This document shows positions 45,257 to 62,309 of a stretch of 64,000 nt of DNA, one piece after another. Position 1 is the first letter of the stretch. Each line of letters begins with the position of its first letter. Origin of the DNA: Aliarcobacter faecis (GTDB lineage Bacteria; Campylobacterota; Campylobacteria; Campylobacterales; Arcobacteraceae); assembly GCF_013201705.1 (NCBI RefSeq), contig NZ_CP053837.1, forward strand, positions 620,001 to 684,000. The letters are read 5' to 3'. Below the pieces are notes generated by a model that saw only the letters and a program-made list of their open reading frames with translations, made no database searches and was not told where the DNA came from. The position numbers and the translations under genes are program-made.

Positions 45257-46221
45257 TGAAATTAAATAATATAGAACAACAAGCGAACTCTTATCTTATA
45301 AGGCAAAAAGAGAAATTATCACCAGATGAACAAAAAGAGTTTGAAACTTGGATAAAAGATGAGAATCATAAAAAAGTTTATGATGAAAATAGAAAATTAA
45401 TAGATGATTTCTTAGATTTAGATGAAGATTTTATAAAAGAGCTAGAAGATGAAATATCAGTAAATACTAAAAAGAGATTAACTTTTAGTTTTAAATATCT
45501 TGCAGCTTCAGTTGTTTTTCTCTGTTTTATCGCCTTTGGTGGATATGAAGTAAATCGAAATTTTATCCCAAATTTTACTCAAAATTTTGTAAGTGTAGAT
45601 GAGAAAGTTCTAAATATAAAACTACCTGATAGCTCTACAATAGATTTGGATAAAAATTCACAAATAAAAATAAGTTATTATGATACAAAAAGAGTTATAG
45701 ATTTAGAAGATGGAAATGCTATGTTTTCTGTAACAAAAGATGAAAATAGACCATTTTTGATAAAAACAAAAGATACTTTAATAGAAGTTTTAGGAACAAA
45801 ATTTGAAGTGATAAATTATGATAATAAAACAAAAATAAATGTTTTAGAAGGGCTTGTACAAGTAAGTTATATATCAAACTTTTTTAAAACTCAAACTTTG
45901 GCTAAACTAGAGAAATCTCAATCTTTTACTTTAGATAATGAAGAAAAAAATTTTACTCAAACTCAAATAAATATAAATGAGATAGCTTCTTGGAAAGATG
46001 ATGAAATATATTTTAATAAAACAAGTTTAAAAGATGCAAGTTTGATATTTGAAAGGTATTCAAATATAAAAATGGAGTTTGAAAATGATAAGTTTTCGCA
46101 GTTAAAAATATCTGGGAAATTCTCAACTTTGCACTATGATAGCTTTTTAAAATCAATAGAGATGATTTATCCTATAAAAGTGGAAAAAAGTGGAAATGTT
46201 GTAAGGGTTGGAAAGAAGTAA
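45256..46221 (+). CDS. FecR-type sigma regulator (copy 1)
   Basis: 321 residues. A cytoplasmic N-terminus (about 1-75) with the DUF4880-like QKEFETWIKDENHKKVYDE motif, one membrane span (about 83-101, YLAASVVFLCFIAFGGY), then a periplasmic FecR domain with ITLPDSSTIDLDKNSQIKI-type KLPDSSTIDLDKNSQI, GNAMFSVTKDENRPFLIKT and EVLGTKFEV, and a C-terminal DUF4974-like region. It senses the loaded outer-membrane receptor through its STN domain and controls the sigma factor. Confidence 0.93.
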   Translation: MKLNNIEQQANSYLIRQKEKLSPDEQKEFETWIKDENHKKVYDENRKLIDDFLDLDEDFIKELEDEISVNTKKRLTFSFKYLAASVVFLCFIAFGGYEVNRNFIPNFTQNFVSVDEKVLNIKLPDSSTIDLDKNSQIKISYYDTKRVIDLEDGNAMFSVTKDENRPFLIKTKDTLIEVLGTKFEVINYDNKTKINVLEGLVQVSYISNFFKTQTLAKLEKSQSFTLDNEEKNFTQTQININEIASWKDDEIYFNKTSLKDASLIFERYSNIKMEFENDKFSQLKISGKFSTLHYDSFLKSIEMIYPIKVEKSGNVVRVGKK

Positions 46222-46235
46222 TCAAAAAGCTTCTT

Positions 46236-46520
46236 TTATATTTCTGGTTTATTTCTATTAAATATTTTTAGTATCTCTATAGAGTTTTTGTCTAAATTAA
46301 TAATATAAGTTATAGTATATTTTTTATATGTCATATCTCTAATATTTTTATTATTAAAATATATAGATTTTTTATACTTATATGGAAAATTTAGTATCTC
46401 TAAAATTAGTTTTTCTAATTCTAAAGCAAAATTTATACTTGCACTTGGTTTATCAATAGCTATATAGTCTATAATATTTATCAATTCTATTTCAAAATTA
46501 GAATTATAAATAATTCTCAT
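46236..46520 (-). CDS. RelE/ParE-type toxin
   Basis: 94 residues with the RelE/ParE fold order: FEIELINIIDYIAIDKPSASI, LEILNFPYKYKKS, the MTYKKYTITYIIN strand and IEILKIFNRNKPE ending. The motif YTITYIINLDKNSIEILKI is the usual core of plasmid-stabilisation toxins. It overlaps its antitoxin gene by 4 bases and lies convergent with fecR. Predicted to act on ribosomes or gyrase; the target is not visible. Confidence 0.8.
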   Translation of the reverse strand: MRIIYNSNFEIELINIIDYIAIDKPSASINFALELEKLILEILNFPYKYKKSIYFNNKNIRDMTYKKYTITYIINLDKNSIEILKIFNRNKPEI

Positions 46521-46842: not shown

Positions 46843-46869
46843 TGTCCGTTTTTTAATTTTTATTCGTTT
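46843..46869 (+). promoter_or_regulatory. Shared ECF-type promoter motif, copy 1 (receptor 1)
   Basis: TGTCC (46843-46847), a 17-base T-rich spacer beginning GTTTTTTAAT, then CGTTT (46865-46869), 50 bases before the ATG of receptor 1. The same motif precedes receptor 2 and macA. A CGT core at -10 and a conserved -35 are typical of FecI-type sigma promoters. Confidence 0.65.
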
Positions 46870-46918
46870 AATATAAAGAGATACCAATTCTCAAAATAGA
46901 AATTGAAAAAGGAAAGAG

Positions 46919-49294
46919 ATGAAGAGAACAAAATATTCATTAGTTACCTCAAGTTTATTGTTATTTTTGGGTATGAATTCATTTGCCGATGAAGTATATA
47001 CTATCCAAAATAAAACTTTAAAAGAGGCATTGGAGATTATATCAAAAAAAGCAAATTTATCTTATATTGCAAATGATGAGGTATTGGAGAAAAAACATAC
47101 GAATAGTATCCAAAATGTTGAAGGAACTCAACAAGCTTTAGACAAGCTTTTGGAAGGTTCGGGCTTAAAAGCTATAATTGATGATAAATCAATAGTAATA
47201 GTAAAAGTGCAAGGAGCTACAAAAGTAATAAATGGAACTTATGTTTTAGATGATGTATCTGTAAAAGGTGGATATTTAGGAAGTTCAACAGAAAATACAA
47301 ATTCATATACTACGGGAAGTATGAGAACAGCTACAAAACTTGATTTGTCAATTAGAGAAACTCCACAATCTGTATCTGTTATAACTCAACAAATGTTAGA
47401 AGATAGAAAAACTGATGAATTTTATACTTTAATAAAAAAAGTAACAGGTGTATCTGTAAGTGAAGGTTTTGATGGTAGAGCAACTTATTATTCAAGAGGA
47501 TTTGACCTTGATTACTACCTATTAGATGGACTTCCTGTAACACAAAATTGGTATACAATAAACAATTATAATATGGATTCATTTGATAGAGTTGAAATTG
47601 TAAAAGGTGCAAATGGACTTATGGTAGGAGCAGGAAATCCAGCAGTTTCTATAAATATGATACGAAAACATGCAAATAGTAAAGTATTTAAAGCAGATAT
47701 AGAAGCAAGTACTGGTTCTTGGGATATGTATAAAATTAAAACAGATATTCAAACTCCTTTAAATAAAGATGGAAGTGTTAGGGCAAGATTAGTAGCAAGT
47801 TATAAAGATAAAGACTCTTTTGTTGATAAAACAAGTCAAGAAAATAGCTTAGTTTATGGTGTGGTTGACGCAGATATAGTAGATAATACTACAATATCAG
47901 CAGGTATTAGCTATGAAGAGAATAATAGAGATGGTATTATGGGAGGGGGAGCTTCTTTACCTGCATTTTATAGTGATGGAACTAGAACAAATTTTGATCG
48001 TTCAAAAAGTTATATGTTTGATTGGAGTAAGTGGAATACAAGTATAACTTCATATTTTACAGATGTAAAACACTACTTTGATAATGATATTTCACTAAAT
48101 GCTTCATATTCACACAATGAAATTCATACAAAAGATAGAAATTTCACAAATATTCAAGGTAGTTTAAATAAAGATGGTTCAGGTTTGACTGCTGGTTATG
48201 GGAAATATCCAGAAAAAATAAAAAAAGATAGTATAGATATTTATTCTTCTATTCCTTTTGCCTTGGCAAAAAAAGAACATGAAATTATTGTTGGAGTTCA
48301 ATATAATAAAGAAAATGATAAAAAATATAAACCAGAATTTTCAAACAAATATAATATCAGTAATTACTTTACTCAAAATGGTAGTGAATTTACCTCTGAA
48401 CCAAATATGGGAAAATCTATTTTGAGACAAGATGCAGATACAGAACAGAAATCAGCTTATCTTACAGGAAAGTTTGAATTAATTGATGATTTAAAACTAA
48501 TCCTTGGTTCAAGACTTACAACTTGGGAATACGATAGTTATAGCTATGATTCAAATAAAAGAACTAAATATGACCATAATAATATATTTACACCTTTTGT
48601 TGGTTTAGTTTATGATATAAATGAAAATCACTCTATTTATACAAGTTATACAGATATATTTTTACCACAAGGAAATGTTAAAGATAAAAGTGGAACTATC
48701 CTAGATCCAAAAGAAGGGAATAATTATGAAGTTGGTATCAAAGGTGAATATTTTGATAAAAAATTAAATGCAGGATTGACTTTATTTAGATTAGACCAAG
48801 ATAATGTTGCTGAAGCAATAAATGGTGTTTTTGTTGATGGTTCAAATGGAACTGAACAAGCTTATAAAAGTATGAAAGGTGTTACTTCAAAAGGAATAGA
48901 ACTTGAAATTGGTGGAGAAATTACTGATAATTGGGATTTAAGTGCAGGATTTACTCACTTTGAAGCAAAAGATGCAAATAAGAATAAAGTAAATACTACA
49001 ACTCCTAGAAATAATATAAATATCTTTACAAAATATAGAATAAATGATTTTAGTATAGGTGCAGGAGTAAATTGGAAAAGTAAGGGTTATAGTAAATCTG
49101 CTACAAGAGAAATTACACAAGATGCTTATGCGGTTGTTGATTTAATGGCTTCATATAAATTTAGTAAAAATTTATCTACACAATTAAATATTAATAACTT
49201 ATTTGATAAAACATATTATATTGGATATGGTACTTCTAGTTATAATTATGGTGATCCAGTTAATGCTATGGTTAGTATGAAATATAGTTTTTAG
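46919..49294 (+). CDS. TonB-dependent siderophore receptor with STN signalling domain (1)
   Basis: 791 residues. A signal peptide (about 1-23, ending SFADE) is followed by an STN domain (about 28-100, IQNKTLKEALEIISKKANLS) that talks to FecR, a TonB-box region LDDVSVKG, a plug domain (TKLDLSIRETPQSVSVITQQ, about 140-250) and a 22-strand barrel ending in aromatic F (VSMKYSF). The plug motif SIRETPQSVSVI is typical of siderophore receptors. Substrate unknown. It is downstream of the fecI1-fecR1 pair, with the toxin-antitoxin pair lying between. Confidence 0.93.
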   Translation: MKRTKYSLVTSSLLLFLGMNSFADEVYTIQNKTLKEALEIISKKANLSYIANDEVLEKKHTNSIQNVEGTQQALDKLLEGSGLKAIIDDKSIVIVKVQGATKVINGTYVLDDVSVKGGYLGSSTENTNSYTTGSMRTATKLDLSIRETPQSVSVITQQMLEDRKTDEFYTLIKKVTGVSVSEGFDGRATYYSRGFDLDYYLLDGLPVTQNWYTINNYNMDSFDRVEIVKGANGLMVGAGNPAVSINMIRKHANSKVFKADIEASTGSWDMYKIKTDIQTPLNKDGSVRARLVASYKDKDSFVDKTSQENSLVYGVVDADIVDNTTISAGISYEENNRDGIMGGGASLPAFYSDGTRTNFDRSKSYMFDWSKWNTSITSYFTDVKHYFDNDISLNASYSHNEIHTKDRNFTNIQGSLNKDGSGLTAGYGKYPEKIKKDSIDIYSSIPFALAKKEHEIIVGVQYNKENDKKYKPEFSNKYNISNYFTQNGSEFTSEPNMGKSILRQDADTEQKSAYLTGKFELIDDLKLILGSRLTTWEYDSYSYDSNKRTKYDHNNIFTPFVGLVYDINENHSIYTSYTDIFLPQGNVKDKSGTILDPKEGNNYEVGIKGEYFDKKLNAGLTLFRLDQDNVAEAINGVFVDGSNGTEQAYKSMKGVTSKGIELEIGGEITDNWDLSAGFTHFEAKDANKNKVNTTTPRNNINIFTKYRINDFSIGAGVNWKSKGYSKSATREITQDAYAVVDLMASYKFSKNLSTQLNINNLFDKTYYIGYGTSSYNYGDPVNAMVSMKYSF

Positions 49295-49295
49295 A

Positions 49296-49323
49296 ATATA
49301 AAGAGAATTTTCTCTCTTTATAT
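49296..49323 (+). terminator. Terminator of receptor 1
   Basis: ATATAAAGAGA / TCTCTTTATAT, perfect 11-base stem one base after the stop, followed by CTTT. Confidence 0.8.
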
Positions 49324-49332
49324 CTTTAGGTG

Positions 49333-49440
49333 TGAGTTCCAAAGTAGTTTTATTTTCTCAAAATTTCGATAAATTGATTTTATACTTTCCCTTTTTCTTT
49401 GGAACTCATACTTAAGGTTATAATAAATCAATAATCATTT
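49333..49440. repeat. Hairpin element, copy A
   Basis: Perfect 12-base inverted repeat TGAGTTCCAAAG (49333-49344) and CTTTGGAACTCA (49397-49408). The loop has AAAATTTCGA and ACTTTCC, and the tail ACTTAAGGTTATA with CAATAATC. All these blocks recur in copy B at 58851-58965. It lies ten bases after the receptor 1 terminator. No ORF of convincing quality is inside. Confidence 0.7.
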
Positions 49441-49524
49441 AATAATCTTTCATTCTGTAATACTTTTAATCTATATTTTTATCTTATGATATAATTTTTT
49501 AAATTATAAAAGTAAGGATTTGAT

Positions 49525-50388
49525 ATGGATAATCTTTCAAATATGGTTATGTATAGTGATGGAGAGTTGGAACTTAAAGTTTCGGTAGATGGTGAAACTA
49601 TTTGGCTGACACAAAAGCAAATAGCAGAGCTTTTTAGTGTAACTATACCAAATATAAATATGCATATAAAAGCTATTTATAAAGATAATGAGTTAATAAA
49701 AAACCGAACTATTCAGAATTTCTTAATAGTTCAAAAAGAGGGTAATAGAGCTGTTGAACGAAATGTTGAACACTATAATCTTGATATGATTATATCTATT
49801 GGATATAGAGTAAATTCTATTACAGCTACAAAATTCCGACAATGGGCAACTACTGTCTTAAGAAACTATATTCAAAATGGTTATGTGATAAATGGAGAAA
49901 AAATCACAAATGAAAGATTTGTAAATCTTGAAAATGATGTAAATGTCTTAAAATCTGAAATGTTTGAAATGAAATCTTTAGTAAAAAATAATAAATTAGA
50001 AACTAATCAAGGAATATTTTATGATGGACAGATATTTGATTCTTACTCTTTTATAAATGATTTATTAAAATTAGCACAAGAAGAAGTTATCTTAATAGAT
50101 AATTATATAGATGATACAGTTTTTACTCTATTTTCAAAATATCAAGATATAAATTTTATTATCTATACAAACAATATTTCAAAACAACTTCAATTAGATT
50201 TTGAAAAGTATCAAAAACAGTATAAAAATCTCTCTCTAAAAACCTTTAAAAATTCTCATGATAGATTTTTAATTTTAGATAAAAAAGAGATATATCATAT
50301 AGGAGCAAGTTTAAAGGATTTGGGTAAGAAATGGTTTGCCTTTTCTAAAATTGGTTTGGATATAGATGAAATTTTGAGAAAACTTTAG
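49525..50388 (+). CDS. RhuM-family protein with C-terminal PLD-like domain
   Basis: 287 residues in two parts. The N-terminal half (about 1-125) matches RhuM/Bro-like proteins: ELKVSVDGETIWLTQKQIAE, YNLDMIISIGYRVNS, KFRQWATTVLRNYIQNGY. The C-terminal half (about 165-280) has DGQIFDSYSFINDLL, ILIDNYIDD and KNSHDRFLILDKKEIYHIGA, a phospholipase-D-like half motif (His, Asp) often seen with this N-terminus. Usually found in accessory regions and linked with virulence or phage defence, function unproven. The start ATG has AAGGAT upstream. Confidence 0.85.
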   Translation: MDNLSNMVMYSDGELELKVSVDGETIWLTQKQIAELFSVTIPNINMHIKAIYKDNELIKNRTIQNFLIVQKEGNRAVERNVEHYNLDMIISIGYRVNSITATKFRQWATTVLRNYIQNGYVINGEKITNERFVNLENDVNVLKSEMFEMKSLVKNNKLETNQGIFYDGQIFDSYSFINDLLKLAQEEVILIDNYIDDTVFTLFSKYQDINFIIYTNNISKQLQLDFEKYQKQYKNLSLKTFKNSHDRFLILDKKEIYHIGASLKDLGKKWFAFSKIGLDIDEILRKL

Positions 50389-50400
50389 TTTATAGAAACT

Positions 50401-50421
50401 GGACTCTCTTTAAGAAAGTCC
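50401..50421. terminator. Hairpin between the RhuM-family gene and the ureohydrolase gene
   Basis: GGACTCTCTT / AAGAAAGTCC with one mismatch, at the convergent junction. Probably a bidirectional terminator. Confidence 0.6.
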
Positions 50422-50448
50422 AATTTCCAAAATATTGATATAAAAAAT

Positions 50449-51510
50449 TTATATAAACTCAATTTTCCCTTGACTAGCCAATAATGCTCCACAAAGTTGA
50501 TATAAAACTCTTGAACCAACATTTGCATCCCAACCATTTTCACTATCTCCAACTTCACATAAATCAAAACCAATTATATTTTTTCCACTTTTTACTATCA
50601 TAAATATTAAGTGTTCAAGTTCTCCAAATCTTAAGCCTCCTGGAACAGGAGTTCCTGTATTTGGACAATTTAATGGCTCTAAACCATCAATATCAATAGA
50701 TAGATATACATTTTGTGGTAATTTTTCAATATATGGAGTAAAAACATCTTCTAATGATTTTCCACTAGCAAGGCTACTTTGCATAGCTGTATCATACAAA
50801 CATGCTCCTTTTTCACCTAAATCAACCATTCTTTGAGATTCTTCTTTACTATAATCTCTAATCCCTATTTGTACAAGTTTTGAAACTTTTTTACACTCTT
50901 GTAAAACATTGTAAAAAATAGATGCGTGAGAGTAAGTAAAGCCTTCATAAGCTTCTCTTAAATCGTGATGAGCATCTACATGAAGTATTCCAAACTCCTC
51001 TTTTGAGATTTTACTTAAAGCCTTTATAAGTCCTAGTGGGCAAGAGTGATCTCCTCCAACAACAGCTACAAATTTACCTTTTTTTAGTAGTTTTAAAGAC
51101 TCTTCATATACAAAAGAGTTTAAAACATTTGAAGCTTCATTTACAAATTTTAAAGATTTCTTATCACTTTTTGCATTTTCTAAAGCATCTATTACTTTTA
51201 TAGCTTTTTTTCTTGCTTTATGGCTTAATTTTGCTATCTCTTTATTTGTTTCCAGCATAGCAATTCCTGCACTATAAGGCTTTTTATAGTGGTAGTTTTC
51301 AACATCTAATTGATGACTTGAAACTCTAATTTTATCTGGTGCATTTGCAGTTCCCTCTCCAAATGAAACAGTTGCTTCCCAAGGAACAGGAAGTAAAACT
51401 AAACTTGCATCTTTGGGGTCTAATCTTCCACCTAAAAATCCATCACTTTTTTGTGGTGGAAGACCAAGCTCTAAAACTTTTATCTCTTCTTCTAAACTTC
51501 TATATGACAT
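50449..51510 (-). CDS. Arginase/agmatinase family ureohydrolase
   Basis: 353 residues from ATG 51510, which has GGGAAAATT upstream; the 12-codon extension is unlikely. Mn-binding motifs are VVGGDHSCPLG, HVDAHHDLREAYEG and LSIDIDGLEPLNCP, all complete. The family splits urea from arginine or agmatine, or formiminoglutamate-type amidines. The N-terminal region is longer than in SpeB of E. coli. Agmatinase (putrescine synthesis) is the usual annotation in this group, but substrate residues were not checked. It is divergent from fecI copy 2 with 57 bases between. Confidence 0.83.
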   Translation of the reverse strand: MSYRSLEEEIKVLELGLPPQKSDGFLGGRLDPKDASLVLLPVPWEATVSFGEGTANAPDKIRVSSHQLDVENYHYKKPYSAGIAMLETNKEIAKLSHKARKKAIKVIDALENAKSDKKSLKFVNEASNVLNSFVYEESLKLLKKGKFVAVVGGDHSCPLGLIKALSKISKEEFGILHVDAHHDLREAYEGFTYSHASIFYNVLQECKKVSKLVQIGIRDYSKEESQRMVDLGEKGACLYDTAMQSSLASGKSLEDVFTPYIEKLPQNVYLSIDIDGLEPLNCPNTGTPVPGGLRFGELEHLIFMIVKSGKNIIGFDLCEVGDSENGWDANVGSRVLYQLCGALLASQGKIEFI

Positions 51511-51567
51511 AATTTTCCCTAAATATAATTTTTTGAAAGTTAGCAATTATAGACTAAATAAGGCAAT

Positions 51568-52107
51568 ATGTCAATATCTTTTTTAATGAAGAAATATTAT
51601 GATAATATTTCTCAAAAAAAATCAGGCAAATTGATGTTGAAATATTATGATGAACTTTTATATTTCTCTTTTAAATTAGTTGGCGATAAAGAAAAAGCCA
51701 AAGATGTGATACAAGAAGCTTACAGTAGATTTCTTGAGATTAAAGGTAAATATGAAATAAATAATGAAAGAGCATATTTATATAAAATAGCAAAAAATAT
51801 TGTTGTACAAGAGGCTTTAGAAAATCAGAAACTTCAAAGCACAATTTATGAAGAAAATCTAAGTTTTGCTCCAGAATATGAGCAACCAGAGGAGATTTTG
51901 ATTCAAGAGGATCAAGAAAAAATTTTTATGCAAATAATAGATGAGTTACCACCAAGAACCAAAGAAGCCTACATTTTATATACTATTGATGGATATAGTA
52001 GAAAAGAGATAGCACAAAAGTTAGATATTACATCAAATGCAGTGGAAAAACTTATCAAAAGAGCAAGTATAAAAGTAGAAGAAGAATTACAAAAGAGGGG
52101 ATTTTAA
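51568..52107 (+). CDS. FecI-type ECF sigma factor (copy 2)
   Basis: 179 residues from the ATG at 51568; by comparison with copy 1 the start could be the ATG at 51634 (MLKYYDELLYF), neither having a strong ribosome-binding site. Region 2 has VGDKEKAKDVIQEAYSRFLE and AYLYKIAKNIVVQE; region 4 has LPPRTKEAYILYTIDGYSRK and SNAVEKLIKRA. It ends directly next to the GTG start of fecR copy 2. Paralogue of 44789-45256. Confidence 0.92.
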   Translation: MSISFLMKKYYDNISQKKSGKLMLKYYDELLYFSFKLVGDKEKAKDVIQEAYSRFLEIKGKYEINNERAYLYKIAKNIVVQEALENQKLQSTIYEENLSFAPEYEQPEEILIQEDQEKIFMQIIDELPPRTKEAYILYTIDGYSRKEIAQKLDITSNAVEKLIKRASIKVEEELQKRGF

Positions 52108-53085
52108 GTGAATAATGAAGCTAAAATCAAAGAAGATGCCATTTATTGGGTAATGTGTGAAAAAGAGGGCTTAGATGAAAATCAAAAAAAGGAGTTCCAC
52201 AATTGGCTTTTAGAAGATGAAAACCATCAAAAAGTTTTTAATAGAATGAAATTTGTACATAATATGTCAAAATCTTTATCAAAACAAAATGCTCAAACTT
52301 TAAGCCAAGAAGCTCATAAACAAATAAGTAAAGATAGATTTTTTAAAAAAATAAAATCATTTTCTACTCTAGCTGCTAGTTTATTAATACTCTGTTTTTT
52401 CGCCTTTAAAGTTTATGAAAATAGCTTTAAAGTGCAGTTTTCAAAAAGCCTTTTAACAGATACAAAAACTATAAAAGAGCAACTTCCTGATGGCTCAAAT
52501 ATTTTAATTGATGCTAAGACAAATCTAAATATAGAATTTTTTAATGACAAAAGAGTGGTATATTTAGTAGATGGACGGGCTATGTTTGAAGTAGAAAAAG
52601 ATGAAAATAGACCTTTTATTATAAAAAGTGATGATGTAAATATTGAGGTAGTTGGGACAAAATTTGAAGTAATCCACAAAAAAGATACTACAACTATAAA
52701 TGTGCAAGAAGGTAGAGTAAAAACATACCATTTGGGACATTTTTTTGATAAGAAAAATGAAATATTTCTTACAAAAGAGAATAGTTTAACTTATTCAAAT
52801 GATAATGGCTCAACAAACCAAATATCAATAATAAAAGCTGATACAATAGCTCCTTGGACGGAAAATAGAGTTCTTTTGGATAAAACAAAGTTAAAAGAGG
52901 CTTTGGAAGAGTTTTCAAAATATAGCGATGTTTCAGTTGTTTTTTCATCAAAAGAAATTGAAGATTATCTTATAACTGGTGAGTTTAATTCAACTCAACT
53001 TGATATATTTTTAAAGACAGTTACAAAAATATATCCGATAAAAATAGATAAAAAAGAGAAAGAGTTAAGAATTTCTAAGAGATAA
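52108..53085 (+). CDS. FecR-type sigma regulator (copy 2)
   Basis: 325 residues, GTG start abutting the fecI stop. N-terminal QKKEFHNWLLEDENHQKVFN motif, one membrane span (about 86-104), then the periplasmic FecR domain (QLPDGSNILIDAKTNLNI, GRAMFEVEKDENRPFIIKS, EVVGTKFEV) and the DUF4974-like tail. Strong resemblance to copy 1 shows that the two loci arose by duplication. It regulates the sigma factor encoded just before it. Confidence 0.93.
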   Translation: MNNEAKIKEDAIYWVMCEKEGLDENQKKEFHNWLLEDENHQKVFNRMKFVHNMSKSLSKQNAQTLSQEAHKQISKDRFFKKIKSFSTLAASLLILCFFAFKVYENSFKVQFSKSLLTDTKTIKEQLPDGSNILIDAKTNLNIEFFNDKRVVYLVDGRAMFEVEKDENRPFIIKSDDVNIEVVGTKFEVIHKKDTTTINVQEGRVKTYHLGHFFDKKNEIFLTKENSLTYSNDNGSTNQISIIKADTIAPWTENRVLLDKTKLKEALEEFSKYSDVSVVFSSKEIEDYLITGEFNSTQLDIFLKTVTKIYPIKIDKKEKELRISKR

Positions 53086-53118
53086 TAAATTAATTCAAAG
53101 AGAATTTATTATCTTTTT
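53081..53118 (+). terminator. Terminator of fecI2-fecR2
   Basis: GATAATAAATT / AATTTATTATC with perfect 11-base arms, followed by TTTTT. It overlaps the last codons of fecR and separates it from the convergent toxin gene. Its presence means receptor 2 needs its own promoter. Confidence 0.85.
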
Positions 53119-53122
53119 CTAT

Positions 53123-53542
53123 TTAATTTTCCATTATAAATTTATCATAAAACTCTTTTGGAGATAAGATTTTTATACTAGAAGATTTAAAATCTTTAGT
53201 ATTTGAAGTTATAATAATATCTGTTTCAACTTTTTTTGCACAAAAGTATTGAATTCCATCTTCAAAATCTTTAAAATTGCTATTTAGTGCATCTTCTATA
53301 ATATTTTTATCAATAGAGATTAAATTATAGCTATTTATTATAGTTTTTAAAGTTTTGTTTAATTCAGATTTTTCAGTTGATTTCCTTCCAATATAGTGGA
53401 TATTAATAATAGATAAATCATTTAAATAAATATTTATATCTTTAATGTTCTCCAAAAATATCAATACTTTTTTAGAAATATTATTATCTCTATTTTCAAT
53501 AGCATTGATAAAAACATTTGTATCAATATAAATTTTTATCAT
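53123..53542 (-). CDS. PIN-domain (VapC-like) toxin
   Basis: 139 residues. PIN signature acidic residues appear in IYIDTNVFINAI (Asp7), KDFEDGIQYFCAKKV and IITSNTKDFKSSSI, followed by ILSPKEFYDKF, a common C-terminus in this family. It is expected to be an RNase acting on tRNA or rRNA. It overlaps the antitoxin gene by 4 bases and is convergent with fecR copy 2. Confidence 0.85.
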   Translation of the reverse strand: MIKIYIDTNVFINAIENRDNNISKKVLIFLENIKDINIYLNDLSIINIHYIGRKSTEKSELNKTLKTIINSYNLISIDKNIIEDALNSNFKDFEDGIQYFCAKKVETDIIITSNTKDFKSSSIKILSPKEFYDKFIMEN

Positions 53543-53838
53543 CTTTGAAGCTTTTTAGATAAATAGTTATCTTTTAGTTCTTCATAAGGAACTTTTCCAT
53601 TATTCACAAACTCTTTATTTAAAAAATCAAAAGCTTCTTCCAAATTTTTGGAACTATCTTTTTTTAAAGTTTTTAATTTTTTTATCTCATTTTCTATCTC
53701 TTCCCAAGATTTTTTATTAGTTTTTGTAGAAGAGAAATTATTTAAGAAATTTATTAATAACTCTTTTATTTCAATTTTTGATTTTTTCTCTATTTCAGGA
53801 TTATTTATCTGAATAGTGCCTAAATCTAAATTAATCAT
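53539..53838 (-). CDS. Antitoxin partner of the PIN toxin
   Basis: 99 residues from ATG 53838 with GGAGTTTA upstream; a 16-codon extension is not supported. Helical, highly charged, with an internal SSTKTNKKSWEEIENEIKK segment. No DNA-binding motif could be assigned with confidence. Called by order, size and the 4-base overlap with the toxin gene. Confidence 0.7.
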   Translation of the reverse strand: MINLDLGTIQINNPEIEKKSKIEIKELLINFLNNFSSTKTNKKSWEEIENEIKKLKTLKKDSSKNLEEAFDFLNKEFVNNGKVPYEELKDNYLSKKLQR

Positions 53839-53928
53839 AATAAACTCCAAATATTTATAAAATTTAAGTGGTATAAAGTATAACAAATTTTATAAAAAAA
53901 TCAAAATTCCAAAATTTCTAAAAATTTA

Positions 53929-53960
53929 TGTCCGTTTTTTAATAATTATTTACTCTTATA
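53929..53960 (+). promoter_or_regulatory. Shared ECF-type promoter motif, copy 2 (receptor 2)
   Basis: TGTCCGTTTTTTAAT is identical over 15 bases to copy 1. The downstream block TTATTTACTCTTATAGAG aligns with TTATTCGTCTTACTATATAGAG of the macA copy, but CG is replaced by TA, so the -10 core is weaker. It ends 53 bases before the receptor ATG at 54013. Confidence 0.6.
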
Positions 53961-54012
53961 GAGTACTAAAAACAATTATCAAAATTGTTTTATGCTAAAA
54001 AAGGAGAAAATA

Positions 54013-56346
54013 ATGAATCAATTTAGAAAAATGATATTAAGCCCAGTTGTTGCTTTGCTTATATCTTCAAGTGCTTTTGCTGATAATATTACATACTCTT
54101 TAGAGAAACAATCTTTAAAAGATGCTATTGAAAAAATCTCAAAAAAAGCAAATAAACCTTATATCACAAATGGTGCAATACTAGATGGTAAAACTGCAAA
54201 TGCCATAAAAGATTTGAATGGTACACAAAATGCTTTAGATGAAGTGCTAAAAAATAGTGGTTTAGAAGCCATAATAGAAGATGGAGCAATAATCATCAAA
54301 CCAGTTTCTTCTGTAAAAGTTTTAAGCAATGGAACTTATGTTTTAGATGATGTATCTGTAAGTGGTAAAAGCAGTAAAAATGGAAGTGCACAGAGTGGCT
54401 ATTTAGTAGAAGATGTAAAAACTCTTGGTGTTTGGGGAAATTTATCTCTTCAGGATACACCATACTCTATGAGTATAGTATCAAGTGATTTTATAGAAAA
54501 TACAATTACAACAAATATGGCACAAGTTGCAAAACAAACTCCAGTTATACAAAGTAATGGAAATGCTTCTTATAATGGTGAGTTAGGAAATAGTATCAGA
54601 GGATTTGCTATTAGTACAGCTTTAGTAGATGGTATTCCTATTCCTTCATCAAATTTTGGAGTTGGTTTAAAAGAAGTTGATAGAGTAGAAGTTATCTCTG
54701 GACTTAGTGGGTTTTTATATGGAAGTGGAAATGTAGGTGGAACTATAAACTATGCTTTAAAATATCCTAAAAAAGAGTCAATTACAGAAATATCTATTGG
54801 AAATAATGGTGGAGAAAACTACTATACTTCAGTTGATACTTCACAAAATATAACTGATAAATTAAGTGTGCGAGTATTTGGAAGCTATCAAGATGGCGAT
54901 ACTGCAAAAGATAATAACTCAAATGAAGAAAAACTCCTTGGTGTATCATTTGCCTATAAACCTACTGATAATCTTGATTTAGGACTATATTACTCACATA
55001 GAGAATCTCATATAAATGGAGTAACTCCTTTATGGGTGGTTACAGGAAAAATGCCAAAAGCTTTTGATACAAGTAAATCTTATACTCCTACTTGGAGTAA
55101 AAACAATATAGATTCTGATAAACTGGAGTTAAAAGCAAACTATAATTTTACTGAAAATATAAGATTAAGAACAGCATATCTTTATAAAAATGCAGATAGA
55201 TTGGCACATTGGTTTATAAATAGATATGATGCAAATAATGGGACTTTTAATAGAGAATTTGGAGATATGGGGAAAGAAGTAACTACAAATCATGGTGCTT
55301 ATGCTTATTTAGATGGAGAGTTTGATACAGGTTCTATTCATCATACTTTGACTTTTGGTGGTTCTTTAGGAAAAGCAAAAGTTAAAAGTGATGATTTTAT
55401 TGATACTTTGGATAACAATACTTATACAAATATTAATGATTTAATGACTTGGAATGTAGCTAATTCATTAACTACAGGTAATTATTTAAATTTAAAATAT
55501 AATAATAAGAATGTTGTTTTAGGTGATAATATTACTTTTAATGAAAATTGGAGTGCATTAGTTGGGGTTAATTATGCCACAGTAGACCAATGGATAACTG
55601 GGAGTGGAAGTTATGATGAGTCTAAACTTACTCCTACTTTATCGCTTATATATAAACCAATAGAAGATTTAACAACTTATGTTACTTATATGGAATCACT
55701 TGAAAAGGGTACAGTTGTTAAGAACTCAAATGATGTAAATAATGGAAAAGTATTTAAACCAAGAGTAAGTACACAATATGAAATGGGAGCTAAATACTCT
55801 ATAAACCAAGATTTACTTTTAAGTACAGCACTTTTTAGAATTGAAAAAGCAAATAGTATGACTGAAAATCTTCCAAATGGTATGACAAAAACCTCAGAAG
55901 ATGGTGAACAGATAAATGAGGGAGTTGAAGTTTTACTAACTGGAAAAGCAACAGATAGTTTAACTTTAATGGGTGGAGTTACATATATAAGTCCAAAAGT
56001 AGAAAAAGCTACAAATAAAGCAATAGAAGGTAAAAAAACAGCAAATAGAGCAAGAGTTCAAGCAAAAATGTATGCAGAATATAAATTGCCAGTTTCTCCA
56101 AAAATCTTTTTAAATGGTGGAGTTTATCATACTGGAACTCAATGGAGAGATGCTATAAATAGTGAAAAGCTAGATGCTTATACAACTCTTGATTTGGGTG
56201 CTAGATATGAAACAAAACTAGATGGTTTGGATACTACATTTAGAATTTATGCAACAAATATAACAGGAGAAGATTATTGGGCAGCTAGTAATATGTTATC
56301 AGAAACTCCAAGAAGTGTTGCTTTTAATGTAAGTGTTAAGTTTTAA
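54013..56346 (+). CDS. TonB-dependent siderophore receptor with STN signalling domain (2)
   Basis: 777 residues from ATG 54013, supported by AAGGAGAAA upstream. A signal peptide (about 1-25, ending SSAFAD) precedes an STN domain (about 26-100, LEKQSLKDAIEKISKKANKP), a TonB box region LDDVSVSG, a plug (LSLQDTPYSMSIVSSDF) and the barrel ending in F (VAFNVSVKF). Paralogous to receptor 1 but far diverged in the barrel, so the substrates probably differ. It opens an operon with the three following genes, after a terminator hairpin. Confidence 0.93.
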   Translation: MNQFRKMILSPVVALLISSSAFADNITYSLEKQSLKDAIEKISKKANKPYITNGAILDGKTANAIKDLNGTQNALDEVLKNSGLEAIIEDGAIIIKPVSSVKVLSNGTYVLDDVSVSGKSSKNGSAQSGYLVEDVKTLGVWGNLSLQDTPYSMSIVSSDFIENTITTNMAQVAKQTPVIQSNGNASYNGELGNSIRGFAISTALVDGIPIPSSNFGVGLKEVDRVEVISGLSGFLYGSGNVGGTINYALKYPKKESITEISIGNNGGENYYTSVDTSQNITDKLSVRVFGSYQDGDTAKDNNSNEEKLLGVSFAYKPTDNLDLGLYYSHRESHINGVTPLWVVTGKMPKAFDTSKSYTPTWSKNNIDSDKLELKANYNFTENIRLRTAYLYKNADRLAHWFINRYDANNGTFNREFGDMGKEVTTNHGAYAYLDGEFDTGSIHHTLTFGGSLGKAKVKSDDFIDTLDNNTYTNINDLMTWNVANSLTTGNYLNLKYNNKNVVLGDNITFNENWSALVGVNYATVDQWITGSGSYDESKLTPTLSLIYKPIEDLTTYVTYMESLEKGTVVKNSNDVNNGKVFKPRVSTQYEMGAKYSINQDLLLSTALFRIEKANSMTENLPNGMTKTSEDGEQINEGVEVLLTGKATDSLTLMGGVTYISPKVEKATNKAIEGKKTANRARVQAKMYAEYKLPVSPKIFLNGGVYHTGTQWRDAINSEKLDAYTTLDLGARYETKLDGLDTTFRIYATNITGEDYWAASNMLSETPRSVAFNVSVKF

Positions 56347-56368
56347 AGAGAGTTTTTAACTCTCTTTA
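56344..56368 (+). terminator. Hairpin after receptor 2
   Basis: TAAAGAGAGTT / AACTCTCTTTA, perfect 11-base arms around TTT, then AATTAGG. It probably attenuates the operon downstream rather than ending it, since only 36 bases separate it from the next gene. Confidence 0.7.
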
Positions 56369-56382
56369 ATTAGGAAATTTTT

Positions 56383-56688
56383 ATGAAAGAATTAATCAAA
56401 ATTTTATCAACTCCCGAAATCAGTGGGAAAAAAATAGGGCTATTTAGAATACTCTGTTCTATCTTTGGTGGGCTTAGTGTTGCATACTTTGGTATGACTT
56501 TACTTGTACTTATACTTCCTGGAATTCCAGTAGAAAATGCCATCTTACCACTTGTGCTTAATACCCTAACTTGGGCTAGCTGTGCTTTATGGATAAGTTT
56601 AGCATATACAAAACTAAGTGCTATTTTAAGAAGTGTTGTGCCAACTATCTTATTTTTAGTTCCAGTTTTAGTTTATTATAATAGTTAA
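56383..56688 (+). CDS. DUF3649-like iron-uptake membrane protein
   Basis: 101 residues, three membrane spans (about 20-45, 54-73, 82-98). The shape, size and position between a receptor gene and a PepSY gene match the DUF3649 iron-uptake group. Sequence matches were judged by eye only. AGGAAATTTTT precedes the ATG. Confidence 0.6.
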   Translation: MKELIKILSTPEISGKKIGLFRILCSIFGGLSVAYFGMTLLVLILPGIPVENAILPLVLNTLTWASCALWISLAYTKLSAILRSVVPTILFLVPVLVYYNS

Positions 56689-56696
56689 GGATAGAT

Positions 56697-58313
56697 ATGA
56701 CAAATGAATTAATAAAAGATTTAGAACAAGAAAAAAGTAAACTATTTAAACAAAGGCTCCAAAGAGTACACCAATCTGTGGGGATAATCTTTGCTTTATT
56801 TATGTATATTGCAGTATTTTTTGGAATATTTGCAATCTTACTTGACTATATTACTCCTTGGGAGAAACCATCTCAACATATAAAGATGATTGACCCTATG
56901 AAAATAGACTATGGAGCTATTGTAGAGCCTGTTTTAGCAGACTCAAATTTTCCAAAAGAGAATCTTATTCGTATTAGACTTCCTGGAACTCATGGAAATA
57001 CTACAGGAGTATTTTGGACAAGATATATAGATGAAGCTTACTACTTCAATCCTCATACAAAAAAGATGATTCAAGATGAGGATGAACAATCAGAGATGGG
57101 TGAGTTTTTAAATAGTATGCACTTTGGAGCAGAACTAGGAGAAATTGGATTTTATGGTTTTGGATTTATGGCTACTGCTGTTTTGTTTTTGGGAATTAGT
57201 GGGATATTATTGGTTTTAAAAATAAAATATAAAAACAGTTCAAATACTACTACAAGTAAATTTTCAAAATACCATAGAAAGATTTTTGTTTGGACATTTG
57301 CCCCTTTTATACTTATTACTTTAACAGGAGCTTTGATAAATATTGGATTTTCTGGTTCAACTGTTATGGCAAAACTTGTATCAAAAGGAGAAGCTTATAA
57401 AGTAAGTCAATTAATTGATCAAGTTGAAAAAAAATCTGAGATGCCAGAATTTGAAAGAAAAAATATCCCTGCACAAATGTTGAGTATAAATGAACTATTT
57501 GAGAAAGCAAAAGAGATAGCACCAGATACAACTTATGCCATGATAGCTTTAAATAATTGGGGAGATATAACTGCTACTGCATATTTTTATGGTTATAACC
57601 AGCCTTTGATACTTTTTAATGGGATATATAATTTTCCAGGTGTTATGTTAAGTGCAGTTGATGGAAGTTTGATAAAAGAGCATAAAGTTATGGATGCACA
57701 TTGGAGTAGATTGTTTCAAAATGCTATCTTCTTTTTTCACTTTTTATGGGGTGTTAATGTATGGATAAAACTATTGATTGCAACTTTGATGAGTTTATCT
57801 TTAGTTGCTATTGGTTTTGGAGTTTTACTTTACTTAGAGAAGAAAAATAGAAAAATTCCTTTGCATATTCCTACTTTTGACTGGATGGGAAGATTGTCTT
57901 TAAGTGTTATGTTAGGAGTTCTTCCTGCAACTGGATTTTTATTTGTAAGTCAATGGTTATTTCCTATTGATATGGAAAATAGAGTTACCCTTCAAAAAGG
58001 GATTTTTATTCTAATTTGGCTTGGAACTTTAACTTGGTCTTTTTATAGACTAAATACTTATCAAGTAGCAAAAGAGTTTTTAACTCTTGGTGGAATTTTG
58101 TTTTTACTTAGTCCAATAGTTCATAGTATAAATAGTGGTTTTTCTCCAATAGAACTTTTAAGTGGAGAGATGTATGCTATTTTGGGAGTAGATATTGGGT
58201 TATTTATTTTGGGAGTAGTTTTACTTTATGTGGCTAAAAAATTGCCAGTAAATAGAGAAAAAGTTCAAGAATTTTGGACTAAAAGATTAAATAAAGGAGA
58301 AGAAAATAGATGA
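56697..58313 (+). CDS. PepSY-associated TM domain protein (PiuB-like)
   Basis: 538 residues. About six to eight membrane spans and PepSY-type segments: VHQSVGIIFALFMYIAVFFG near the N-terminus, KYHRKIFVWTFAPFILITLT, GSLIKEHKVMDAHWSRLF and FFHFLWGVNVWIKLL. The histidine pattern (His in VHQSVG, HRK, FFHFLWG) resembles PiuB-type proteins proposed to reduce ferric siderophores at the inner membrane. It follows the DUF3649-like gene by 8 bases and overlaps the next gene by 4. Confidence 0.85.
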   Translation: MTNELIKDLEQEKSKLFKQRLQRVHQSVGIIFALFMYIAVFFGIFAILLDYITPWEKPSQHIKMIDPMKIDYGAIVEPVLADSNFPKENLIRIRLPGTHGNTTGVFWTRYIDEAYYFNPHTKKMIQDEDEQSEMGEFLNSMHFGAELGEIGFYGFGFMATAVLFLGISGILLVLKIKYKNSSNTTTSKFSKYHRKIFVWTFAPFILITLTGALINIGFSGSTVMAKLVSKGEAYKVSQLIDQVEKKSEMPEFERKNIPAQMLSINELFEKAKEIAPDTTYAMIALNNWGDITATAYFYGYNQPLILFNGIYNFPGVMLSAVDGSLIKEHKVMDAHWSRLFQNAIFFFHFLWGVNVWIKLLIATLMSLSLVAIGFGVLLYLEKKNRKIPLHIPTFDWMGRLSLSVMLGVLPATGFLFVSQWLFPIDMENRVTLQKGIFILIWLGTLTWSFYRLNTYQVAKEFLTLGGILFLLSPIVHSINSGFSPIELLSGEMYAILGVDIGLFILGVVLLYVAKKLPVNREKVQEFWTKRLNKGEENR

Positions 58314-58807
58314 AAAAATTTATATATATGTTGGTTTTTATAGTTTCATCACTTTTTGCAAATGAGACAAGATTTATTTTAGATGTAAAAGCAAATGCAG
58401 ATAATAGTGTAACTATAACTGGTGGGCAAAAAATACCAGGGGCTATGATAAGATTTGAGTCTTTGAAAACTGGTGAGATTTTATTTAAACAAAGATTTTC
58501 TCAAAGTAGCCAGATGAATGTAGCTATTCCAAATGAACCATATCAAGTGGTTTTAGTAACTGGTCCAGATGAAAAATTGGTAAAAAATGGAGTTTTACTA
58601 AGTGATAAATCAGATATTCAAACAGTAGAGATAAAAGCTGATATTATGGATAAAATTAGTAAAACACAAACAGAAAAGAGTGAATGGAATAATTTAAATA
58701 TAACTTTGTATTCTTTAGCTTTTTTACTTATATTTTTAACTATGTATTTTAGTAGTAGAAGTAGTAAAAAGATTTTAGAGATGGTAAAACAAAATAGTGG
58801 AGAGTAA
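58310..58807 (+). CDS. Small periplasmic protein with C-terminal membrane anchor
   Basis: 165 residues. Signal peptide MKKFIYMLVFIVSSLFA, then a beta-rich domain (TRFILDVKANADNSVTITGG, GAMIRFESLKTG) and a membrane span near residues 132-148 with a short basic tail. Not recognised; its placement suggests a part in the receptor 2 uptake system. It overlaps the PepSY gene by 4 bases. Confidence 0.7.
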   Translation: MKKFIYMLVFIVSSLFANETRFILDVKANADNSVTITGGQKIPGAMIRFESLKTGEILFKQRFSQSSQMNVAIPNEPYQVVLVTGPDEKLVKNGVLLSDKSDIQTVEIKADIMDKISKTQTEKSEWNNLNITLYSLAFLLIFLTMYFSSRSSKKILEMVKQNSGE

Positions 58808-58808
58808 T

Positions 58809-58842
58809 CTATAAATAGGGAGTTTTACTCTCTATTTTATAG
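58809..58842 (+). terminator. Terminator of the receptor 2 operon
   Basis: CTATAAATAGGGAGT pairs with ACTCTCTATTTTATAG, one bulge and one G-U, around TTT. It lies just after the last gene of the operon. Confidence 0.75.
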
Positions 58843-58850
58843 ATTTAGAT

Positions 58851-58965
58851 ATGAGTTTCAAGATATTTTTCTTATGATTAAAATTTCGAATAAAATAATA
58901 ATTAGAAAAACTTTCCTTTTTAATATTTTGGAACTCATACTTAAGTTTATAGAGAAACCAATAAT
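58851..58965. repeat. Hairpin element, copy B
   Basis: ATGAGTTTCAA (58851-58861) pairs with TTGGAACTCAT (58928-58938), one G-U. Internal AAAATTTCGA and ACTTTCC blocks and the tail ACTTAAGTTTATA with CAATAATC match copy A at 49333-49440. It starts nine bases after the receptor 2 operon terminator. Confidence 0.7.
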
Positions 58966-59083
58966 CTTTTATAGTTTAGATATTGTTTTAACCAGTTTGT
59001 TATAGAACAAATTCTTTAATTATGTTACAAATATCTACTTTTAAATATAAAATTCTATAAATTTAAAAGTTTTTCTTATTTTA

Positions 59084-59108
59084 TGTCCTTTTTTTTTAAT
59101 TTATTCGT
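59084..59108 (+). promoter_or_regulatory. Shared ECF-type promoter motif, copy 3 (macA)
   Basis: TGTCC (59084-59088), a 17-base spacer made of nine T, AATTTATT, then CGT (59106-59108), 55 bases before macA. The spacer length is exactly the same as in copy 1. Confidence 0.65.
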
Positions 59109-59162
59109 CTTACTATATAGAGAATAACTCTCATAATTATAATAAAGGAAATTATAAATAAA

Positions 59163-60344
59163 ATGCCTAAAAAATCTTTTAAAAAGTTAAAGCTATTATT
59201 AGTTCTTTCAACAATTTTACTTTTATTATCTTTTTTTGTTTGGTATAGCTTTTTCCGTTTGGTAGAAGTAGTAAAAAGTGAAGAGATAGTAAAAGGAAAT
59301 ATTAGAAATGTTGTATCTGCTTTAGGTGTTTTACAGCCACATAAATATGTTGATATTGGAGCTCAAGTTTCAGGGCAAATTGAAAAAATTCATGTAAAAG
59401 CTGGAGATATAGTAAAAAAAGGTGATTTATTAGTTGAAATTGACCCTAGTTTGCAAAGTGCAACAGTTCAAACAAATCAAGCAACTTTATCAAATTTAAA
59501 AGCCCAATTAATAGAGCAAGAAGCTATCCTTGAATTAGCAAATTTTCAATCAAAAAGACAAGAACAACTTTTAAAAAATGATGCTACAAAACTTGAAAAT
59601 GTACAAACAGCTCAAGCAAATTTAAAAGTTGCAAAAGCAAGAATAAAAAGTTTGGAAGCACAAATTAAAGGGGCATTATCAACTTTACAAGGAAATGAAG
59701 CACTTCTTGGATATACAAAAATTTATGCTTCGATGGATGGAACAGTTGTATCTTTAATTGCAAAAGAGGGACAAACTTTAAATGCTACATATCAAACACC
59801 AAAATTATTGAGAGTTGCAGATTTATCTAAAATGACTGTTTGGACTGAGGTTTCTGAAGCTGATATTGGAAAACTTAAAATTGGTATGGATATATATTTT
59901 ACAACTTTAGGATTAAAAGATAAAAGAGGTGAACTTCGTACTTGGAAAGGGAAATTACAACAGATACTTCCTGCACCTGCTCCTGTATCTACTAATGAAA
60001 ATAGTGAACAAAAAGAGTCTTCAACAACAAAAGTTGTAGTATATACAGCACTTTTTGATATAGAAAATGAAGATAATAGTTTGATGAGTCAAATGTCTGC
60101 TCAAGTATTTTTTGTTGAATCTTTTGCAAATGATGTTTTATTAGTTCCATTGTATGCCTTAAAAGAGCAAAAAGATGGTACTTATCTAGCAAAAGTTTTG
60201 GTAAATAATAAAATAGAGAATAGAGTTGTAAAAATTGGAATAAAAGATAGACTTTATGGTGAAGTTTTAGATGGTATAAAAGAGAATGAAAAAATTATTA
60301 CAAAAATTGAAGAACAAAAAGCCTCTACGAGATTGCAATGGTAG
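59163..60344 (+). CDS. macA: MacA-like periplasmic adaptor
   Basis: 393 residues. An N-terminal membrane anchor (about 12-34), then the first half of a biotinyl-lipoyl domain (VDIGAQVSGQIEKIHVKAGD), a coiled-coil hairpin (about 100-175, rich in Gln/Leu/Ala) and the second lipoyl half (YTKIYASMDGTVVSLIAKEG), then beta-barrel and membrane-proximal domains. It links an inner-membrane MacB to an outer-membrane factor. It overlaps macB by 7 bases and is led by the shared ECF-type promoter. Confidence 0.93.
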   Translation: MPKKSFKKLKLLLVLSTILLLLSFFVWYSFFRLVEVVKSEEIVKGNIRNVVSALGVLQPHKYVDIGAQVSGQIEKIHVKAGDIVKKGDLLVEIDPSLQSATVQTNQATLSNLKAQLIEQEAILELANFQSKRQEQLLKNDATKLENVQTAQANLKVAKARIKSLEAQIKGALSTLQGNEALLGYTKIYASMDGTVVSLIAKEGQTLNATYQTPKLLRVADLSKMTVWTEVSEADIGKLKIGMDIYFTTLGLKDKRGELRTWKGKLQQILPAPAPVSTNENSEQKESSTTKVVVYTALFDIENEDNSLMSQMSAQVFFVESFANDVLLVPLYALKEQKDGTYLAKVLVNNKIENRVVKIGIKDRLYGEVLDGIKENEKIITKIEEQKASTRLQW

Positions 60345-62308: not shown

Positions 62309-62309
62309 G

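Follow-up and report, generated by a model that had tools for sequence, protein, structure and literature searches.

Two genes for TonB receptors and an operon for a MacAB-type efflux pump lie within one stretch of the Aliarcobacter faecis genome, and the same short motif precedes all three. Which sigma factor reads this motif, and does it join uptake and export in one regulon? The stretch analysed, hereafter the window, comprises 64,000 nucleotides (C1:620001-684000) of G000, a genome of 2.45 Mb assembled in two contigs, and was compared with 31 genomes of the genus, 104 of the family (20 genera) and 298 of the order. A first-pass annotation of this DNA had taken the motif for a promoter of the FecI type, and both receptors and the pump for members of a single regulon. 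The former proposal is well supported by the position of the motif, by its co-occurrence with fecI and by variation that follows fecI. The latter is not: the three copies are three variants, tied to three different sigma factors, encoded by the fecI genes at 44789 and 51568 and, by inference, at C1:1142308. Judged from sequence, the motif is very probably a promoter read by FecI-type extracytoplasmic function (ECF) sigma factors throughout the Arcobacter/Aliarcobacter group, with one variant for each of seven FecI proteins.

Predicted promoter variants and the adjacent fecI genes

All three copies stand where they had been reported, 50-80 bases before a gene. TGTCC begins at 46843, 53929 and 59084, which is 76, 63 and 79 bases from the ATG codons at 46919, 53992 and 59163. 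The first two copies open, as described, with the identical 15 bases TGTCCGTTTTTTAAT, which have no third occurrence in the window and were matched twice in none of 100 shuffled sequences. Copies 1 and 3 share TGTCC-N17-CGT, a pattern present twice in the window against 0.05 expected and, again, twice in 0 of 100 shuffles. No CGT is present in copy 2, whose -10 is more plausibly ACTCTTA at 53952-53958, behind a spacer of 18 bases. The AGAG and TCTCA/ATCA blocks said to follow the -10 are found in all three. That nothing similar occurs elsewhere in the window proved true of copies 1 and 3 but not of copy 2. In a scan of 127,944 window positions with a held-out matrix, built from five receptor promoters that lie outside the window (in one of them the spacer was cut by 1 base), macA ranked first (25.0 bits) and receptor 1 second (22.9 bits, against 13.8 for the next), whereas receptor 2 ranked eighth. 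When only the -35 and -10 were scored with a 17-base spacer, macA kept a clear lead (18.3), receptor 1 led narrowly (12.7 versus 12.1) and receptor 2 fell to rank 2606, because its -10 and spacing differ. We rejected the notion that copy 2 is a degenerate copy, since the 18-base spacer with ACTCTTA (or TGTCTTA) recurs beside fecI_671, the fecI gene of its own trio, in relatives.

Extension of the search to the whole genome, a step that the first-pass annotation had suggested, returned eight strong sites (E ≤ 3.3e-7, the next at 0.02), which precede seven STN TonB receptors and macA. The model was built from these eight sites and scored the best 150 of 3257 first-look candidates; consequently, the list is no proof of completeness and further sites may exist. 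Seven of the 20 TonB receptors in the genome carry an N-terminal STN, over the Pfam cut-off in six, and the motif lies 40-90 bases ahead of each of the seven. Among the 150 candidates scored, no strong site precedes the 13 other receptors, three of which were scanned for STN and have none. A single promoter for every TonB receptor was thereby ruled out, 13 of the 20 being without a strong site. Likewise, none of the 150 candidates is a strong site before a fecI of this genome, and fecIR itself is apparently, on sequence evidence, not transcribed by FecI. One TonB receptor gene of the genome (C1:1726677-1728011) contains an in-frame TAA.

The genome holds eight Sigma70_r2 genes, of which seven are short and of ECF type and one, of 629 aa, is taken as RpoD. 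Six of the STN receptors adjoin a fecI-fecR pair; the seventh (C1:755968, or R_756) is unlinked, and one pair, at C1:1142308, has no adjoining receptor. The sigma factor of this orphan pair, fecI_1142, is also over the Pfam cut-off for Sigma70_r2 and Sigma70_r4_2, as is its adjoining partner for FecR and FecR_C. In the genus genome G013 the orthologue of the orphan pair adjoins a receptor homologue 77% identical to the unlinked receptor, and a tree of STN domains joins R_756 with two fecI_1142-adjacent cases at 99%. Because its fecI is not adjacent, R_756 bears the fecI_1142 label by inference in the receptor-part and tree analyses below.

Sites at E ≤ 1e-3, a cut of our own choice for co-occurrence, were found in 10 of the 31 genus genomes, and these are also the 10 in which a FecI relative was detected at E ≤ 1e-15; across the family, 27 of 104 genomes in 6 of 20 genera possess such sites. 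Sorted by the adjacent fecI, the sites fall into seven variants with few single-base departures: TGTCC-N17-CGTTTAA for fecI_665, TGTCC-N18-ACTCTTA or TGTCTTA for fecI_671, TGTCA-N17-CGTCTTC for fecI_894, TGTCA-N17-AGACTTC for fecI_2272, TGTCC-N18-CGTTTTA for fecI_1360, TGTCT-N17-CGTCTTA for fecI_1057 and (T/C)(G/A)TCC-N17/18-CGTCTTA for fecI_1142. The fecI_665 variant, for example, recurs next to fecI_665 orthologues in four relatives, once as CGTTTAG. The general form of the predicted promoter is TGTC(C/A/T)-N17 or N18-nGTCTTA, followed by a AATTCTCATAATT-like element. Leave-one-out assignment of promoter to adjacent fecI, using the -35, the -10 and the first two spacer bases, agreed for 35 of 35 genus sites (shuffled labels, in the -35/-10 version, gave a mean of 4.7 and a maximum of 16), which are not 35 independent cases because orthologous promoters share descent. 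Three rows with an adjacent fecI (L130, L131 and L139) were omitted from this count; read by eye, L130, with a 17-base spacer, and L131 have the fecI_671 -10 ACTCTTA, and the L139 promoter deviates from its own class.

In an alignment of 59 FecI sequences, the TGTCA and TGTCC classes are told apart by three columns, of which one, near the start of the region-4 helix-turn-helix, has E/Q/D versus K (one T); the pattern is confounded by descent and we make no claim of specificity. An A/T-rich TTTCAAAATTT-like stretch 2-12 bases before TGTC, exact in four of the eight own sites and similar in many relatives, is possibly an UP element.

Beyond the -10, a 19-base element resembling AATAATTCTCATAATTAAT is present in all classes, its core mostly starting 13-16 bases after the -10, and the AGAG and TCTCA/ATCA blocks overlap it. 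It may be a Fur operator or the counterpart of the region downstream of E. coli fecA, where sequence beyond the transcription start also matters, according to the available text of the source (PMC9249621). Four of the 13 non-FecI receptors outscore all 26 control regions for this element (Mann-Whitney p 0.036, with two starts uncertain). A strong inverted repeat after the -10 of each promoter was considered and discarded; only 6 of 42 palindromes reach p<0.05, and hence a shared consensus alone is claimed.

Probable receptor cassettes, the predicted pump promoter and the genes around them

Our comparison of receptor parts revealed that promoter, FecI, FecR and receptor STN remain together (35 of 35), and that in 21 of the 28 loci compared from relatives the receptor's best homologue in our genome is of a different class from the fecI and promoter of that receptor. 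The receptors are chimaeric. For signal peptide plus STN, the nearest relative in another genome belongs to the same class in 35 of 35 cases, with a mean identity of 0.758 within and 0.427 between classes. The corresponding count is 13 of 35 for the plug and 13 of 35 for the barrel, whose identity is 0.353 within versus 0.346 between classes; shuffling gave a mean of 4.8 and a maximum of 13. Scanned in sliding windows, the receptors lose class signal at the TonB box, from 33/35 at residues 71-95 to 11/35 at residues 101-125. The same boundary appears in DNA at the fecI_894 locus of G012 and G003. Identity per 100 bases is 0.92-1.0 through fecI, fecR, promoter and STN, lies at about 0.5-0.66 over plug and barrel, and regains 0.8-1.0 about 80 bases past the stop and through the downstream genes, both flanks being colinear. 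The fall at the TonB box is steep, from 1.0 to 0.4 in the space of about 40 bases. A left-hand break of this kind (left side only) is likewise seen at the receptor 1 locus and at the fecI_1360 locus against G013.

We consider it probable that these TonB transducers are modular, with a fixed socket behind which plug-barrel cassettes are swapped, between sockets and between species, at the TonB box, that one genome has multiplied the socket, and that the sigma class of this multiplied socket is the best candidate for driving MacAB in our genome. A ligand bound by the barrel, presumably an iron or siderophore signal, would free the STN to signal to FecR, which would free FecI to transcribe its receptor. 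The fecI at 44789 would read the promoter of receptor 1, and that at 51568 the promoter of receptor 2. Promoter, FecI, FecR and STN would stay as the signalling module, with plug and barrel replaced by recombination at the TonB box; species could thus change ligand without altering the circuit.

The genome with the multiplied socket is G030, for which 33 sites are listed at E ≤ 0.1. It contains at least 21 copies of one promoter-STN 5' module with a mean identity of 0.91 (L132-L136, L178, L183, L185, L187, L189, L191-L206). In all 21 copies compared, a poly-G tract of 9-10 G lies 183-184 bases after the start codon, and the reading frame opened by that codon closes after 67-68 codons in 20, one copy being cut by a contig end. 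Among copies with enough sequence, the plug/barrel parts are all distinct at 0.8 (18/18) and form 10 groups at 0.6. The copy beside fecI_1142 carries the same promoter. Tract lengths differ between copies, as seen in one assembly per species. The set is a candidate phase-variable receptor repertoire, in which one socket would have been copied before many barrels, each behind a poly-G switch and under one sigma factor. G013 has three related copies, one of which reads on. The relative in G003 has no tract and an open frame, in line with the 0 poly-GC tracts reported, in the available text, for A. butzleri RM4018 (PMC2147049).

Three of the 31 genus genomes, namely G000, G013 and G030, have an orthologue of macA (E ≤ 1e-30), and the promoter precedes all three orthologues, its -35, spacer length and -10 kept across differing neighbourhoods; the G030 site was missed by the model search and recognised on reading the sequence. 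In our genome the macA promoter is the top-scoring site of a model that includes it. With 12 downstream bases included, the macA promoters of G000 and G013 classify as fecI_1142 (33.5 versus 19.1 and 30.5 versus 21.3). Moderate evidence thus points to the distant fecI_1142, about 463 kb away, as the sigma factor of macA; with three variants for three sigma factors, the two local fecI genes are not likely drivers. Most likely fecI_1142 would read both macAB and the unlinked receptor at C1:755968, its circuit additionally transcribing the pump, so that one extracellular signal would raise uptake along with export. MacA, MacB and an outer-membrane factor form an operon here, MacA and MacB scoring below the NCBIfam equivalog cut-offs. 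In eight more distant macA homologues among the 298 genomes of the order, the promoter is, by eye, absent from the roughly 160 upstream bases. Two of these eight, from genomes outside the genus, show the gene order TonB receptor (weak similarity)-PepSY-macA-macB, with one DUF4198-like gene, just below cut-off, interposed in G085 and an outer-membrane factor seen in G358; the link of the pump with receptor and PepSY genes accordingly extends beyond the genus. The PepSY operon of G013 possesses its own weak site (E 0.003). A strong FecI-type site also precedes a DUF3450 gene in G087 (L220:1707-3058) and G086 (L262), making this a second non-receptor target.

Table 1. Features of both receptor trios and the pump operon, in window positions.
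Feature	Positions	Strand	Basis or remark
fecI_665, FecI-type ECF sigma, 155 aa, trio 1	44789..45256	+	Pfam Sigma70_r2, Sigma70_r4_2 over cut-off
fecR_665, FecR-type sigma regulator, trio 1	45256..46221	+	Pfam FecR, FecR_C over cut-off
ParE-type gene between fecR and promoter 1	46236..46520	-	Pfam ParE_toxin 37.8 bits; partner ORF 46517-46765
Predicted promoter 1, TGTCC-N17-CGTTTAA, fecI_665 variant	46843..46871	+	Matrix, model search, class assignment
Promoter 1 downstream element ACCAATTCTCAAAATAGAA, which may be a Fur-type operator or a FecI downstream element	46883..46901	+	
Receptor 1, STN+plug+barrel TonB transducer, siderophore-receptor subfamily	46919..49294	+	Pfam; TIGR01783 313 bits (cut-off 223.5)
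Receptor 1 signal peptide + STN, residues 1-104, stays with fecI class	46919..47230	+	
Receptor 1 TonB box VLDDVSV, end of class signal	47243..47263	+	
fecI_671, FecI-type ECF sigma, trio 2	51568..52107	+	Pfam Sigma70_r2, Sigma70_r4_2 over cut-off
fecR_671, FecR-type sigma regulator, trio 2	52108..53085	+	Pfam FecR, FecR_C over cut-off
PIN-domain (VapC-like) gene between fecR and promoter 2	53123..53542	-	Pfam PIN_3 48.3 bits; partner ORF 53539-53886
Predicted promoter 2, TGTCC-N18-ACTCTTA, fecI_671 variant	53929..53958	+	
Promoter 2 downstream element AACAATTATCAAAATTGTT	53971..53989	+	
Receptor 2, TonB transducer	53992..56346	+	STN below Pfam cut-off (20.0 vs 28.4); TonB box 54340-54360
PepSY-TM protein	56697..58313	+	Pfam PepSY_TM; small ORFs 56383-56688, 58310-58807
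Predicted promoter 3, before macA, TGTCC-N17-CGTCTTA, nearest fecI_1142 variant	59084..59112	+	
Promoter 3 downstream element AATAACTCTCATAATTATA	59123..59141	+	
macA, periplasmic adaptor	59163..60344	+	NCBIfam MacA 248.9 bits, below 342 cut-off
macB, ABC transporter	60338..62308	+	Pfam MacB_PCD, ABC_tran, FtsX; PDB 5nik MacB E 8.8e-153
Outer-membrane efflux protein, NodT family	62298..63668	+	TIGR01845 320.6 bits (cut-off 210); Pfam OEP

Small genes separate fecR from the receptor promoter in 6 of 34 fecI-fecR loci, with gaps of 621-1305 bases (window 46236-46765 and 53123-53886; L042, L123, L147, L214), the remaining 28 gaps measuring 6-125 bases. Four of the six hold Pfam toxin-antitoxin types (ParE, PIN, HepT with nucleotidyltransferase, HicB), and the other two are similar by eye. 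A RhuM-family gene (Pfam PF13310) lies shortly 3' of receptor 1 at 49525-50388, and such genes were, by eye, often found soon after receptors (L042, L121, L124, L135, L139, L144, L145, L214). Elsewhere in the genome, a protein of 1033 aa, in which an AMP-binding domain is combined with a part resembling ATP-grasp, is encoded at L038:739-3840 (C1:884739-887840), at a distance of about 3.4 kb from the gene for a FecI-type receptor. On contig 2, a 4.3 kb stretch matches plasmids of Arcobacter sp. DSM 115972 and AZ-2023 (chicken meat) at 100% identity and a plasmid of Aliarcobacter cryaerophilus at 97.6%. Among named relatives, FecR as query yielded no more than two loci.

Alternative explanations

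Several observations weigh against reading the motif as one promoter variant per FecI, placed before exchangeable receptor parts. Besides the shared descent of orthologous promoters, the leave-one-out agreement drops to 33/35 and 30/35 when 6 or 12 downstream bases are added, and at E ≤ 0.1 some match appears in 23 of 31 genus genomes. Outside the genus, where 39 of 41 listed sites were examined and a FecI was found upstream by script for 35 (none for 4), the variant agrees in 20 of 21 cases whose FecI shares 58% identity or more with one of ours, three of them by less than 1 bit and some being near-duplicates; below that identity, a threshold picked after the table had been seen, it agrees in 3 of 14. 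On trees the class label, in support of the reading, changes 6 times for the STN, the minimum, versus 19 times for plug and barrel (shuffled mean 23.4), the latter tree being a quick build with long-branch warnings. As few changes arose in 0 of 200 shuffles on either tree; barrels are therefore not wholly class-free and retain some class signal, chiefly that of fecI_1360. For the pump, the lead of fecI_1142 is small on the -35 and -10 alone (18.3 versus 15.6 in both G000 and G013), and the G030 macA promoter was not assigned to fecI_1142. Finally, in the available text on the sigma factors of A. butzleri, sigma7 had no effect on its linked receptor gene AB2299 and increased AB0705 and AB1870, and the authors conclude that iron starvation does not involve the sigma factors (PMC3445524). 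The G003 receptor matching AB2299 has a site, and none is listed near the counterparts of AB0705 and AB1870, gene numbers being taken as kb.

Were the variants neutral, one or several FecI might read all eight promoters as one regulon, and the TGTC-like -35 of all variants, the GTCTTA of most, the 15 bases common to copies 1 and 2 and the overlapping sigma regulons reported for A. butzleri (PMC3445524) would fit. We regard such cross-recognition as unlikely, given that the variants track fecI at 35 of 35 genus sites and at 20 of 21 off-genus sites with a close FecI, and that for sigma1 of A. butzleri activation is reported of its own receptor AB0988 alone (PMC3445524). It is very unlikely that the classes reflect nothing but joint descent of whole loci, free of functional constraint. 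Adjacent promoter, STN and fecI would admittedly be co-inherited anyway; yet 21 of 28 loci have a differing receptor body but an unchanged promoter class, identity within classes is 0.96 for the -35 and -10 versus 0.77 for the spacer, the unlinked receptors L121, L128 and G003_1378 are still clearly classed, and FecI proteins of other genera, 58-75% identical, mostly keep the variant.

The macA promoter might instead be a relic of a receptor promoter, left by rearrangement and now functionless, since macA lies downstream of receptor and PepSY genes and its homologue in the off-genus G085 and G358 comes directly after PepSY with no such promoter. Its retention before 3 of 3 genus orthologues in differing neighbourhoods, and the rank of the window copy as best in the genome (by a model that includes it) and best in the window by the held-out matrix, render this decidedly doubtful. 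That the shared sequence is mainly a Fur-type operator on ordinary sigma-70 promoters is hardly credible: the element after the -10 is indeed common to all classes and also raises four non-FecI receptors above the controls, but TGTC and the -10 stand at near-fixed spacing and vary with fecI, and those genomes of the genus that lack FecI have no strong sites. A Fur-type operator may well exist in addition to the promoter.

If promoters specific to each FecI are indeed what we have found, sigma and promoter variants could be read from Arcobacteraceae sequence, and unlinked receptors and pumps assigned to their regulators before any experiment. Barrel exchange behind a fixed module would furnish natural experiments on how a ligand signal passes through an STN of foreign origin. 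It is tempting to add that a poly-G receptor repertoire in G030 would contrast with A. butzleri RM4018, for which the same source as above gives 0 poly-GC tracts (PMC2147049).

Comparison with known systems

Among the literature matches listed (titles and abstract starts, few subscription journals), we found no paper that treats this promoter, the exchange of barrels behind STN or TonB receptors with poly-G tracts in Arcobacter. The components themselves, namely ECF sigma factor, FecR-type regulator and STN TonB receptor, are those of the E. coli FecI-FecR-FecA system and of Pseudomonas FpvI, FoxI and FiuI. A predicted sigma-specific promoter before the receptor, with none found before fecI among the 150 candidates scored, is a further likeness to FecI-FecR-FecA. 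Unlike that system, there are here seven parallel systems with distinguishable promoters and TGTC(C/A/T) as the -35, plugs and barrels are swapped among systems, and an efflux operon has a promoter of the receptor type. A MacAB-type pump with adaptor and outer-membrane channel, behind a predicted promoter of the kind used by siderophore-uptake sigma factors, recalls PvdS and PvdRT-OpmQ of Pseudomonas, a comparison that is reasonable as an analogy. The PvdS box, TAAAT-N16/17-CGT, differs from the present motif in its -35. A predicted PvdS site lies upstream of pvdRT-opmQ, according to the available text (PMC10715066).

Closest in phylogeny is A. butzleri, for which the accessible text describes seven sigma/anti-sigma pairs, of which sigma1, sigma4 and sigma5 activate the adjacent TonB receptor genes AB0988, AB1462 and AB1573 (PMC3445524); the words 'promoter' and 'motif' are absent from its main text as available. 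The positions and order of the fecI genes in G003 fit the mutated loci AB0986, AB1044, AB1460, AB1577 and AB2301, with gene number again taken as kb, and sites of the 665, 894 and 671 classes precede the receptors matching AB0988, AB1462 and AB1573. A difference concerns the pump, macA orthologues in the genus being found only in the three genomes named above. The candidate repertoire of G030 has its likeness in HmbR and HpuAB of Neisseria, phase-variable haemoglobin receptors in which, as the available text has it, a homopolymeric G tract likewise lies within the reading frame of a TonB receptor (PMC3786947). Unlike in HmbR and HpuAB, the tract of G030 sits in a shared STN module ahead of many different barrels.

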